Shown one piece after another: positions 46,135-50,135 of a stretch of 64,000 nucleotides of DNA; position 1 is the stretch's first letter, and each line of letters starts with the position of its first letter. The stretch spans positions 7,749,001-7,813,000 of the forward strand of contig NZ_FNTD01000004.1 in NCBI RefSeq assembly GCF_900104815.1, written 5' to 3'. Source of the DNA: Streptomyces misionensis. GTDB lineage: Bacteria > Actinomycetota > Actinomycetes > Streptomycetales > Streptomycetaceae. Position numbers and translations under genes: made by a program. The notes under the pieces are model-generated. The model did no database searches. It was not told the DNA's origin and saw nothing but the letters and a program-made list of their open reading frames with translations.

Positions 46135-46755
46135 GCGTCAGTCTGCTCAGCAGGCGGCCGAGTGGGGCGGGAGCCCGGTCGGGGGCGAGGTCCTCGACCA
46201 GGACGCGGCCGTAGCGGATCTTGCGCCCCTTCTTGGTGCCGAGGAAACGCCTGAACTGCTGCCGGGGGGGGCTCGGCCTTGCTGGGCGGGCTGGCGCAGG
46301 AAGGTCTGAAGCGCGCGCAACTCGCCTTGCGCCCGAATGAGTTCCGCCACCCGTGGCACCCCCAAGGCACGGATGAGTTCGTCCTCCAGATCCGCGGCGC
46401 ACACGAAGAAGTCGTCCCGGGCGGCACCGGCCTCGCCGAAGCCCCGTGCGTAGTAGGGGTGTTCCGCCTCGTCGCACAGTCCGGTGAGGCGGAGGTCCAG
46501 GCCCGAGGGTCCGAGGAGCCGGGTGTAGCGCCCGACGCTCATCGCACCGCCGATCGGCAGGACGCAGATCCCCTCGGCCGCCAGGTCCCGGCCGCGGCCT
46601 TCCGCCAGCGCGTCGACCGCCGCGACGTCACTCGGCCCTTCCAGCAGCACGACCGCCCGGACCGCCAGCCGCGCGGCCAGATCCCGGGCCGGTTCGCCCG
46701 GCCCGCCGGCCGCCCACGCGGTGACCGCGTCTCGGAACGCCCCCATGTCGGCCAT
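46118..46755 (-). pseudogene. TOPRIM-domain protein, frameshifted in a G8 run
   Basis: The N-terminal frame (from ATG 46755) has the TOPRIM pattern LLEGPSDVAAVDALA with the catalytic Glu, PIGGAMSVGRY and LTGLCDEAE, as in OLD-like nucleases. The coding-like tail (QQFRRFLGTKKGRKIRYGRVLVEDLAPD...LIQED) lies in another frame. The two join if the G run at 46264-46271 had nine bases instead of eight. Otherwise the protein ends with ~45 aberrant residues. Nucleic-acid cleavage is the usual role of the fold. Confidence 0.7.
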
Positions 46756-46876: not shown

Positions 46877-47449
46877 TCAGCGTTCGGCCGGGCCGAGGAC
46901 GCCTGTCACCAGCCGGCGCGCGTACGCGCCGTCCAGCCCGTCCGGGCGGAAGAGGATGCGGTACATCAGGGGCGCCACGACGTGGTCGATGACCGCTTCC
47001 GTGCCGGGTGTCGGCTCGCCGCGTTCGGCCGCCCTGGTGAGCACGGCGTCGATCTGCTCGGCGGCATAGGCGGAGCACTGCCCGGCATTGCCGCCGTCCG
47101 GGTCGCCGAGCAGGGCGTCGCGGATGTAGGCGCGGCCGGTGGGGGAGGACATCTCGTCGAGGAACTGCTCGGCCCAGCTCGTCAGGTCGCTCAGCAGGGA
47201 CCCGTGGTCGTCCGGTGCCGTGTCGGGCCGCAGCCGTTCCACCGCCACGTCCGACAGCAGTTCTTGCAGGTCCCCCCAGCGGCGGTAGATCGTCGACGGG
47301 GTCACACCCGCGCGCTGGGCGACTTGCGGGACCGTGAGCGTCTCCCGGCCGTTCTCCGCGACGAGTTCGCGTACGGCGGCGTGCACTGATGCCTGGACCC
47401 GGGCGCTGCGGCCGCCCGGACGCACCATCTGCCTGCTCATGGCATTCAT
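46877..47449 (-). CDS. TetR family regulator of the amidase/MBL regulon
   Basis: 190 aa (ATG 47449; ATG 47440 also possible). HTH ASVHAAVRELVAENGRETLTVPQVAQRAGVTPSTIYRRWGDLQEL. A 22-bp motif abuts its start codon and recurs twice in the amidase/MBL intergenic region, so it should autoregulate and control both neighbours. It lies downstream of the amidase gene on the same strand, separated by 47 bp. Confidence 0.87.
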   Translation of the reverse strand: MNAMSRQMVRPGGRSARVQASVHAAVRELVAENGRETLTVPQVAQRAGVTPSTIYRRWGDLQELLSDVAVERLRPDTAPDDHGSLLSDLTSWAEQFLDEMSSPTGRAYIRDALLGDPDGGNAGQCSAYAAEQIDAVLTRAAERGEPTPGTEAVIDHVVAPLMYRILFRPDGLDGAYARRLVTGVLGPAER

Positions 47450-47450
47450 C

Positions 47451-47472
47451 TTAAAGCAAATTCATTGCGTCT
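47451..47472. promoter_or_regulatory. regulon operator copy 1 (before TetR gene)
   Basis: On the minus strand: ACGCAATGAATTTGCTTTAA core. Shares ACGCAA and GCTTTAA blocks with copies 2 and 3 at the same spacing. Confidence 0.7.
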
Positions 47473-47496
47473 GATGGAAGCCTTCCCGCGGCCGGC

Positions 47497-48888
47497 TCAT
47501 GCCGCGCGCGCGAGCTCGCGGGCGGGCCGGGACTGCTCGTAGGCATGGCCGACGCGCAGGAGCACGCTCTCCGAGAGGGGGCGTCCCAGGAGCTGCATGC
47601 CGATCGGCAGCCCCGCCGGGTCGTGGCCGACCGGCAGGCAGAGGGCAGGCACCCCGGTGATGTTGGCGGGGGAGGAGAGGCGCACATAGGCGTCGGACAC
47701 ACTCTCGACGCTGCCGTCGGCCCAGGTGATCGTCTCCTGTTCGGCCCGCACGGCGGTGGCCGGGACGGCGGGAGCCGCGATCACGTCGACCTCCCGGAGG
47801 AGCCGGTCCCATGCCTCCCGCATGAGGGTGCGCGAGCGCTGGGCGCGCAGATAGTCCCCGGCGGTCATCAGCTCGCCGGCCTCCAGCAGGACGCGGACGT
47901 CGGCCTCGTAGAGCTCGGGGACGGTCCGCAGGGTGCGCTCGTGGTAGGCGGTGGCCTCGGGCACCATCAGGCCCCAATGCGTGGCCTGGACGTAGCGGGC
48001 CATGGGGATCTCCACGTCGACGAGGTGTGCGCCGAGGGCCTGGAGCCGGTCGACGGCCTGCCGGACGGCGGTTTCCACCTCCGGGTCGACGCGGTCGAAG
48101 TAGTAGGTGCTCGGCACGCCGATCCGCAGTCCGGAGAGGTCCGTTGCGGCGGTCGGGCGGTAGTCGGTGGCCGGTGCGGCGAGCGAGGCGGGGTCGCGCG
48201 GGTCGTACCCGGCCAGCGCGGTCAGCACCAGGGCCGCGTCCTCGACCGTGCGGGTGATCGGGCCGACGTGGTCCAGTGACCAGGACAGGGACGTGACACC
48301 GTGGCGGGAGACGAGACCGTAGGTCGGCTTGAGGCCGACCACCCCGTTGAGCGCGGCGGGCACCCGGATCGAGCCGCCGGTGTCGGTGCCGAGGGCGAAG
48401 GTCGCGGAGCCCGCCGCGACGGCGACGGCGGACCCGCCGCTCGACCCGCCGGCGACCCGGGCCGGGTCCCAGGCGTTGCGGGTCTGCGGGGTGGTGAGGC
48501 CGTAGGCGAACTCATGGGTGTGCGTCTTGCCGAGGAGGACCGCACCGGCCGCCGCCAGGCGCGCGGCGACCGTGCTGTCGCTGTGCGCGCGGTGGTCGGC
48601 GCGGACCCGGGAACCGGCCGACGTGGCCGTGCCGGCGACGTCGATCAGATCCTTCAGGCCCATCGGGATGCCGTGCAGCGGACCGCGGTAGCGGTCGGCC
48701 GCGATCTCGCGTTCGGCGTCCCGCGCGGCGCCGCGGGCGCGCTCGGCGTCGACGGCCGCGTACGCCCGCAGCCGCGGTTCCGTCCGGTCTATCCGCTCCA
48801 GGACGGAGTCCACGAGTTCCACGGGCGACAACCGGCGGGCGCGGATCGCGTCGGCGGCCTCGGTCAGGGACATCTCATACGGCCGCAT
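47497..48888 (-). CDS. amidase-signature hydrolase, AtzE/GatA-like
   Basis: 463 aa from ATG 48888 (AGGAGAAG upstream). Ser-Ser-Lys triad: K in GIPMGLKDLID, cis-Ser in GTDTGGSIRVPA context and the catalytic Ser in AGGSSGGSA. The GatA-type SLTEAADAIRARRLSPVELVDSVLERI N-terminus is present. Encoded just after a GatC/AtzG-like partner, overlapping by 14 nt, which fits an AtzE-AtzG-type complex. Hydrolyses an unknown C-N bond. Likely TetR-repressed. Confidence 0.88.
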   Translation of the reverse strand: MRPYEMSLTEAADAIRARRLSPVELVDSVLERIDRTEPRLRAYAAVDAERARGAARDAEREIAADRYRGPLHGIPMGLKDLIDVAGTATSAGSRVRADHRAHSDSTVAARLAAAGAVLLGKTHTHEFAYGLTTPQTRNAWDPARVAGGSSGGSAVAVAAGSATFALGTDTGGSIRVPAALNGVVGLKPTYGLVSRHGVTSLSWSLDHVGPITRTVEDAALVLTALAGYDPRDPASLAAPATDYRPTAATDLSGLRIGVPSTYYFDRVDPEVETAVRQAVDRLQALGAHLVDVEIPMARYVQATHWGLMVPEATAYHERTLRTVPELYEADVRVLLEAGELMTAGDYLRAQRSRTLMREAWDRLLREVDVIAAPAVPATAVRAEQETITWADGSVESVSDAYVRLSSPANITGVPALCLPVGHDPAGLPIGMQLLGRPLSESVLLRVGHAYEQSRPARELARAA

Positions 48889-49084
48889 CGGGCTTCTCCT
48901 GTTCGGCGCGGTAGGCGAGGGCGGGCGGGGTGTCGCCGAACTCCAGCTCCCGCAGGACGGCGACGACCGAGTGGATGTGACGGGCGACGGCGGCGACCTC
49001 GGCATGGCGGTCGCTCGGCAGGGGAAGCCCGGCACGCGCGGCCCAGCGGGCGGCTTCCGCGGGGGCGAGATCGCCAGGGGACAT
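48875..49084 (-). CDS. AtzG-like (GatC analogue) small subunit
   Basis: 69 aa. AAEAARWAARAGLPLP-type helix, DRHAEVAAVARHIHSVVAVLRELEF and DTPPALAYRAE follow the AtzG/DUF4089 pattern (G-L-P-L..R..VA, then D..PA..Y). In the AtzE system this small protein stabilises the amidase. It overlaps the amidase start by 14 nt and would be translated first from the shared mRNA. The call is by pattern and context; no structure check was possible. Confidence 0.68.
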   Translation of the reverse strand: MSPGDLAPAEAARWAARAGLPLPSDRHAEVAAVARHIHSVVAVLRELEFGDTPPALAYRAEQEKPDAAV

Positions 49085-49139
49085 GGGCCTCTTCTTTCGT
49101 CAGGACGGGGCAGGGCAGAGCTGAGGGAGCCTGCCCGCC

Positions 49140-49161
49140 TTAAAGCTAACTCTTTGCGTTA
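49140..49161. promoter_or_regulatory. regulon operator copy 2 (before AtzG-amidase operon)
   Basis: On the minus strand it begins TAACGCAAAG and ends TTAGCTTTAA. Same 22-bp layout as copies 1 and 3. Lies 55 bp before the small-subunit start. Confidence 0.75.
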
Positions 49162-49187
49162 GATGACTGTAGGGCCTACGATGCGCT

Positions 49188-49209
49188 TAACGCAAACAAA
49201 TAGCTTTTA
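49188..49209. promoter_or_regulatory. regulon operator copy 3 (before MBL gene)
   Basis: Plus strand: begins TAACGCAAAC, ends AATAGCTTTTA. 20 bp before the MBL start codon, so it covers the transcription start region. Inverse orientation to copy 2. Confidence 0.75.
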
Positions 49210-49229
49210 CTGTGCTGGAAGGAAAGACC

Positions 49230-50135
49230 ATGAACGCTTCCCCCTCGGCCGGCGCTCCCGGCTGGAGCGTGGGCGGTATCCGCGTCCACCGCATCGACGA
49301 GACCGTCCTGCCGCCCGCCACCGGGGAGTGGCTGCTGCCGGACGCCACGCCCGCCCTCGTCACCGCTCAGGACTGGCTGCGCCCCGACTTCGCCGACGCC
49401 GAGGGTGTCCTGCGCCTCGACAGCCACAGCTTCGCCTTCGTCCTCGGCGGGCTGCGCATCGTGGTGGACACCGGCATCGGCAACGGCAAGGAGCGGGCCA
49501 ACCCCGCCTGGCACAACCTGCGTACGGGCTACCTCCAGCGCCTCAGCGACGCCGGTTTCCCGCCGGACGAGGTGGACCTGGTGATCCTCACGCATCTGCA
49601 CGCCGACCACGTCGGCTGGAACACCCGCGAGGTGAACGGGGAATGGGTGCCCACCTTCCCCAACGCCCGTTACCTCGTGTCCCGTACCGAGCGGGAGTTC
49701 TGGGCCGGACACGACATGGAGGAGGCCCGCAGGCAGATGTTCCGGGACTCCGTCGTCCCGGTGGAGGAATCAGGGCAGCTCGACCTCGTCGACATTCCGG
49801 CGGAGGGCGCCGGGATCACTTCCGGCCTGCGCCTGCTGCCAACCCCCGGGCACACCCCGGGCCATGTCGCCGTCGAACTGACCGACGGCGGCCACCGGGC
49901 TGTGATCACCGGCGATTGCATCCACCACCCCCTCCAGTTCGCCCACCCCGCCGTCGGCGCCTGCGTCGACATCGACCCCGACCGCTCGGAGCGTTCCCGT
50001 CGCGCGCTGCTCGGCTCGCTCGCCGGCACCGACACCCTCCTCCTGGGCACCCACTTCCCCCCGCCCACGGCCGGCCACGTCGTCCCCCACGAGGGCGCCT
50101 ACCGCCTCGCGCCCGTCCCCGCCGACAGACACTGA
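49230..50135 (+). CDS. MBL-fold hydrolase, lactonase-like
   Basis: 301 aa from ATG 49230 (GGAAGGA upstream). Metal motif HLHADHVGW (H122, H124, D126, H127), LLPTPGHTPGHVAVEL and GDCIHHPLQFAHP with the bridging Asp, then HFPPPTAGHV. Resembles AHL-lactonase and related N-acyl/ester-lactone hydrolases. Shares the operator with the amidase operon on the other strand, so both are induced together. Confidence 0.86.
   Translation: MNASPSAGAPGWSVGGIRVHRIDETVLPPATGEWLLPDATPALVTAQDWLRPDFADAEGVLRLDSHSFAFVLGGLRIVVDTGIGNGKERANPAWHNLRTGYLQRLSDAGFPPDEVDLVILTHLHADHVGWNTREVNGEWVPTFPNARYLVSRTEREFWAGHDMEEARRQMFRDSVVPVEESGQLDLVDIPAEGAGITSGLRLLPTPGHTPGHVAVELTDGGHRAVITGDCIHHPLQFAHPAVGACVDIDPDRSERSRRALLGSLAGTDTLLLGTHFPPPTAGHVVPHEGAYRLAPVPADRH

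Follow-up and report, generated by a model that had tools for sequence, protein, structure and literature searches.

A probable TetR-family regulon of Streptomyces misionensis with paired operators around a two-way promoter, a GatC-like protein–amidase pair and a metallo-beta-lactamase-fold hydrolase

Introduction

In Escherichia coli acrR/acrA, a bidirectional promoter under a TetR-family repressor lies beside an efflux operon, as described in the available part of PMC12825309. In Rhodococcus QsdR/QsdA, a TetR-family repressor is divergent from a hydrolase operon with palindromes between them (available text of PMC6262395). Small proteins that accompany amidases are represented by GatC of the GatC/GatA tRNA amidotransferase and by AtzG of the AtzG/AtzE 1-carboxybiuret hydrolase of Pseudomonas sp. 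ADP, and AtzE is held to have arisen from GatA (accessible portion of PMC12283126). Here we report on a cassette of four genes encoding a TetR-family repressor, an amidase, a GatC-like small protein and a metallo-beta-lactamase (MBL)-fold hydrolase, located in a stretch of 64,000 nucleotides (nt) of Streptomyces misionensis (GCF_900104815.1, NZ_FNTD01000004.1, positions 7,749,001-7,813,000, forward strand), called the window hereafter. Judging from its operators, the repressor very likely co-regulates itself, the MBL gene and the small protein–amidase unit.

The cassette resembles each of these systems only in part. As in acrR/acrA, a two-way promoter would be repressed by a TetR-family protein with, in relatives of the cassette, an efflux-type transporter gene adjacent, but in the cassette two operators flank the promoter core, with one proposed -35 element in each. 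QsdR/QsdA differs in that its amidase lies outside the operon, and the accessible text of PMC6262395 describes neither a transporter nor a GatC-like protein. The neighbours and the regulator of AtzG/AtzE are unlike those of the cassette. Finally, the small protein is weakly GatC-like and the amidase is nearest to GatA chains in the PDB, but the genome carries a separate GatCA elsewhere. In the titles and abstract openings surveyed, a coverage outside which most subscription papers fall, we found no description of this gene set.

Results

A palindromic operator at three positions of the cassette

The cassette comprises the following features (positions are those of the window).

46877..47449, minus strand: TetR-family repressor gene, with TetR_N and TetR_C_11 domains
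47451..47473: operator A, 1 base pair (bp) 5' of the TetR start codon, TTAAAGCAAATTCATTGCGTCTG
47497..48888, minus strand: amidase-signature amidase, 463 amino acids, Pfam Amidase 403 bits
48875..49084, minus strand: GatC-like small protein, 69 amino acids, sharing 14 bp with the amidase start
49140..49162: operator B, TTAAAGCTAACTCTTTGCGTTAG, holding the proposed MBL -35
49163..49186: promoter core between operators B and C
49187..49209: operator C, TTAACGCAAACAAATAGCTTTTA, holding the proposed amidase -35 and the putative MBL transcription start
49230..50135, plus strand: MBL-fold metallo-hydrolase, 301 amino acids, divergent, its ATG preceded by AAGGAAAG, Lactamase_B 74.3 bits

A sequence-only reading of this DNA had proposed that three copies of a 22-bp motif place one TetR over itself and over two divergent units. 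The genes lie where that reading put them, and the three copies are real and within 1 bp of their proposed positions, but the unit is a 23-bp palindrome, with the consensus TTAAMGCAAANNNTTTGCKTTAA obtained by comparison with relatives. The literal string proposed, TAACGCAA followed by a spacer and GCTTTAA, is exact at just one of the three sites, whereas the relaxed pattern ACGCAANNANNTNGCTTTWA, itself derived from the three sites, fits all of them. In the window this pattern matches the three sites with 0 mismatches and no other at up to 3 mismatches (shuffles expect 0.11). Allowing 2 mismatches, it has no match in the 8.47-Mb genome other than these three sites, and its reversal has one match genome-wide. 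An initial motif pattern with a wrong spacer, which had one unrelated match, was dropped, and so were two off-register palindromes, found nowhere in the window and at one unrelated site (G035:C20:46021) among 12 genomes.

The repressor matches PF16859 with 72.2 bits (cut-off 32) and its N-terminal DNA-binding domain matches PF00440 with 35 bits (cut-off 24), which places it in the TetR family. A palindromic operator at its own and at its putative target promoters is in keeping with this family, and an operator at the TetR start, positioned like operator A, is seen in many relatives. The segment TPSTIYRRWG, with I or V at one position, is retained in the protein and in 10 aligned relatives with operators at their loci; it may be the recognition helix.

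The operator accompanies the gene set in relatives

The search for the same gene order in other actinomycetes showed that the set recurs, with the MBL gene on one side and small protein-amidase-TetR on the other; such conserved relatives rule out a curiosity specific to the window. Beyond the window, 29 loci combine the small protein with a near-full amidase, and each has the TetR and MBL genes as well, with palindromes. MBL relatives were matched in 47 of 61 genomes, own genome included, and the small protein was found at 23 loci in a named genome collection. Since the small-protein family was matched in only 8 of 396 genomes drawn from the phylum (own included, 15 candidates scored per genome), the cassette is sporadic. 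The plasmids surveyed were a sample (25 of 862, 15 and 60 of 210, and 40 of 1,553 records), from which 25 places were picked by hand.

The operator was then counted in 61 loci totalling 799,867 bases, the part from the window included. At up to 4 mismatches there are 129 sites, 127 of them at the starts of regulon genes, and the reversed consensus gives none; at least one site is present in 53 of the 61 loci. This count dropped hits below 40% identity for TetR, 45% for the amidase, 40% for the small protein, 55% for MBL and 38% for the transporter of the major facilitator superfamily (MFS) described below, as well as long-protein hits covering less than 55% of the query; L001-L034, L046, L070-L101, L103-L105, L111 and L132 onward lie outside it. 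L037 and L038 are apparently one locus from two genomes, their match identities being identical. The palindrome is present at all 42 loci that combine the small protein with a near-full amidase, L037 included, and 40 have at least two copies, so that within this set the search for related TetR proteins lacking the motif near the amidase or MBL gene returned none; in six of the 42 the 3-kb stretch stops before or within TetR.

At up to 4 mismatches, eight of the 61 loci lack a site: L044 (partial MBL), L045 (distant MBL), L066 (amidase lacking the central part), L118 (amidase with 54% identity, the 3-kb stretch being without a TetR match), L126 (MBL without a TetR match), L119 (TetR 59%, with a single site at 5 mismatches), and L122 and L123 (TetR about 44%). 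L066 (8001-8719), from Kitasatospora aureofaciens ATCC 10762, still has the small protein, while its amidase matches at both ends only and no operators are present; it is probably a decaying copy. L126 (8001-8912) is a plasmid MBL gene, 75% identical to that of the window, with no TetR or amidase match and no operators.

In genome G035 the cassette is split between contig C8, which has the MBL gene and two operators, and contig C1, which has small protein-amidase-TetR, a pair of operators upstream of the small protein and a single one at TetR; with the pattern used to scan 12 genomes, no further site turns up in this genome at up to 2 mismatches. Exact matches to that pattern in the 12 genomes are confined to cassettes, and matches elsewhere with 1-2 mismatches are few, among them the double palindrome at L103 described below. 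The operators track the genes across genera, phyla and the split cassette, and this comparison supports the proposal of one TetR over itself and two divergent units. That the sites arose by chance or belong to another regulator, the amidase and MBL not being co-regulated, is very improbable given this split, the three sites in the genome and the counts over the 61 loci. In its favour stands a second TetR gene of the same genome (L103), whose product has no match to the cassette TetR and which has similar half-sites next to it, so these half-sites are not unique to one regulator. There, two abutting palindromes with half-sites CAACGCAA...TTGCGTTG (L103:5021-5065; G000:C4:1331020-1331064) sit between that TetR gene and its divergent neighbour, and an LLM-type oxidoreductase-like frame occurs farther along.

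A probable two-way promoter between paired operators

Across operators B and C and the core between them, proposed promoter elements are found on both strands over the same DNA, as in a bidirectional promoter.

Plus strand, proposed MBL promoter: -35 TTGCGT 49154-49159 (operator B), 17 nt, -10 TACGAT 49177-49182
Minus strand, proposed small protein–amidase promoter: -35 TTGCGT 49195-49190 (operator C), 18 nt, -10 TACAGT 49171-49166

This arrangement is conserved. In 49 operator pairs, with sites taken at up to 5 mismatches, the operators are spaced by 45-49 bp, and the core between them is near-palindromic, often ACCGTAGGNCCTACGGT. With spacings of 15-19 nt allowed, TAnnnT follows the TTGCKT arm in 77 of 98 orientations, at 17 nt in 47 and at 18 nt in 30, as against a mean of 5.9 and a maximum of 13 in 200 shuffles of the core; L037, L044 and L045 were excluded from this analysis. 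With TAnnnT at 17-18 nt, the -35 element of one promoter would fall within each operator together with the start region of the opposite promoter. On these patterns, a two-way promoter between the paired operators is probable, and bound repressor would be expected to shut both directions.

The amidase and its small protein are likely a GatC-like pair

The amidase belongs to the amidase signature family, and K79, S149 and S173 are invariant in 13 aligned sequences; by analogy we assign them as the putative catalytic triad. Its best PDB matches are GatA chains. Against the NCBIfam AtzE models it reaches 352.6 of 461 and 339.3 of 425.75 bits, both below cut-off, and in a tree it stands apart from AtzE, though AtzE is a long branch. 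It groups, with moderate support, with Rhodococcus amidases, two of which adjoin nitrile hydratase genes, and the cassette and Rhodococcus amidases fall in one open fork (support 84/96, not starred). The structure model of the amidase was poor (pLDDT, the predicted local distance difference test, of 53.5) and was not used.

None of 25 small-protein family members matched the Pfam AtzG-like family PF13318 at E 1; a genome search with PF13318 found no match anywhere, but adds nothing because its controls were silent too. Profile comparison with AtzG likewise gave no match (2.8%). The small protein aligned in hhalign at 97.4% with small frames preceding other amidases, and its profile match to the GatC of its own genome is weak (57.2%). 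With its predicted model (pLDDT 77.7; predicted template modelling score, pTM, 0.54), the top seven Foldseek matches come from entries containing GatC or AtzG, each weak, and a comparison with viral structures gave 35 scattered weak matches, none at E 0.001. Matches of the family to GGDEF_2 (9/25, best E 0.0014) and DUF5419 (1/25), and to unrelated PDB chains, were taken as chance.

Small protein and amidase are likely a GatC-like pair, and the 14-bp overlap of their genes suggests translational coupling. The label AtzG/AtzE-type given by the sequence-only reading is not supported, since PF13318 is not matched and the amidase falls below the AtzE cut-offs and away from AtzE in the tree. A role as glutamine amidotransferase is unlikely: R358 and D425 of Staphylococcus aureus GatA, which we take to be the glutamine-binding residues, align with L334 and R403 of the amidase. 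The Rhodococcus plasmid amidases are 51-56% identical to it and have a GatC-like small frame directly upstream, but at their loci (L132-L135), unlike at the cassette, matches to TetR, MBL and MFS are missing, as are operators at 4 mismatches. In another actinobacterial family, a GatC-like gene of 66 amino acids precedes an amidase 54% identical (L142:8482-10072); L118 is the 3-kb stretch of this locus.

The MBL hydrolase and the question of acylhomoserine lactones

In 13 aligned MBL sequences, H122, H124, D126 and H127 of the motif HLHADH are invariant, together with H208, D229 and H275; the A is the one residue of the motif that varies. The protein accordingly has the HxHxDH motif and the further metal ligands of the MBL fold. 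Its best matches among solved structures are organophosphorus hydrolases and its best NCBIfam match is the AidB lactonase, with 85.7 bits, far under the cut-off of 360. The description of this protein as lactonase-like amounts to no more than a distant family resemblance.

An amide and a lactone are exactly the two bonds of N-acylhomoserine lactones, and the cassette could serve quorum quenching, with the amidase cutting the acyl chain and MBL opening the ring. There are precedents: the amidase-signature enzyme QsdB, whose Ser-Ser spacing matches that of the amidase, cleaves N-acylhomoserine lactones (available text of PMC3676327), and Rhodococcus QsdR controls a lactonase and is freed by free homoserine lactone (according to the part of PMC6262395 available). 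We nonetheless regard this explanation as quite unlikely. Besides the low AidB score, QsdB falls in the NylA branch according to the accessible part of PMC3676327, whereas the cassette amidase scores 136 bits with the NylA-type 6-aminohexanoate-cyclic-dimer hydrolase and 262 with GatA. QsdR (4ZA6) is not among the five PDB sequence matches of the TetR at E 1e-5, and quorum quenching leaves unexplained the presumed exporter found in related loci.

A transporter in related loci and in Proteobacteria

A near-full MFS gene is present in 14 of the 42 loci, mostly between the operators and MBL. Decayed copies stand in L036, L050 and L058, and L106 retains a piece. The window genome lacks the gene, the best match there being 31% identical, and appears to have lost it. 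The best matches of the transporter are mostly drug-efflux families, each below cut-off.

The consensus came from the window and actinomycete relatives before any proteobacterial locus was scanned, which makes the latter an independent test. Ten proteobacterial loci around a TetR hit (L107-L110, L119-L122, L130, L131) were examined and eight have sites, the exceptions being L119, with its one site at 5 mismatches, and L122, with none; no sites occur in two proteobacterial loci around an MBL (L111) and an amidase (L138). In eight loci the TetR proteins are 51-63% identical; an MFS gene with 40-44% identity stands opposite TetR in seven of them, and paired operators are present in six of these seven, L119 being without them at 4 mismatches. 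The eighth locus, L110 of Caballeronia, has only a short MFS-matching piece opposite TetR. In Pantoea (L121, TetR 44%), MFS and TetR lie 2.4 kb apart with sites at both. In Roseibium (L120), where the operators are 38 bp apart, TetR stands opposite MFS, a 63-amino-acid protein and an amidase with 51% identity. In Kitasatospora (L125), MBL-MFS stands opposite TetR, with no amidase match.

These data bear on whether the cassette feeds a nutrient pathway, in which TetR would sense a natural or nitrile-derived amide, the amidase and MBL would feed carbon and nitrogen metabolism and the transporter would import or balance. Outside the cassette, two kin of the amidase (L132, L134) have nitrile hydratase genes as neighbours and a third (L133) has an allantoin permease, atzG-atzE-atzH clusters are tied to nitrogen compounds (available part of PMC6219798) and the transporter is missing from most of the 42 loci. 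We consider such a pathway unlikely, as the transporter, below cut-off, mostly matches drug-efflux families best, pairs with TetR without these enzymes in several Proteobacteria, and no shared downstream catabolic gene was noticed in a comparison restricted to the cassette genes, without a dedicated search.

Several neighbourhoods deserve mention. In L125 (281-3565), the Kitasatospora plasmid genes adjoin blsE, blsF and blsG, which the record notes assign to antibiotic biosynthesis. In L110 (5995-8094), TetR, which has paired operators, precedes a frame that is presumably MurA-like. In the window, a short gene of 202 amino acids with an OLD-like TOPRIM domain (46147-46755) adjoins the cassette.

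Discussion

We favour, as reasonably probable, an inducible detoxification or catabolic regulon built of a TetR repressor, an exporter core, and an amidase and an MBL hydrolase that would hydrolyse the inducing compound. TetR would occupy three copies of the 23-bp palindrome, one in the start region of its own gene and one on each half of the two-way promoter, which would drive MBL one way and the GatC-like protein, the amidase and probably TetR the other way. A small-molecule inducer would release TetR. The core of the regulon would be TetR and the MFS exporter, to which actinomycetes would have added the MBL hydrolase and the GatC-dependent amidase, and this genome would have lost the exporter. 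The products may remove or consume the inducing compound by cutting an amide bond together with one of lactone or ester type. The recurrence of the transporter speaks for detoxification, and the nitrile-linked amidases speak for primary amides.

Several observations weigh against this regulon. A generic sigma-70 scan of the window found no promoter, and the -10 boxes are poor in proteobacterial operator pairs. Detoxification is argued chiefly from the transporter, which is restricted to 14 of the 42 loci, is absent here and is presumed to export. Some kin of the TetR accompany a transporter alone, and some kin of the MBL or the amidase have no TetR match or operator. Finally, some of the loci counted had earlier served to draw the consensus, which was done by eye.

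A more specific version would be a two-phylum TetR regulon of exporter, GatC-dependent amidase and MBL, with the -35 elements inside the operators, that disarms one natural product or signal, such as an acylated lactone, by cutting two bonds; we advance it tentatively, as rather unlikely.

Operator and promoter geometry are unusually clear in this regulon, and conservation of the operator reaches from Streptomyces to Proteobacteria, so that a simple reporter should suffice to look for the inducer. Beyond AtzG/AtzE and the tRNA amidotransferase, the regulon contributes a further amidase pair, probably of GatC type. Its study may show which compounds soil bacteria sense and hydrolyse by paired amide- and ester-cutting enzymes.

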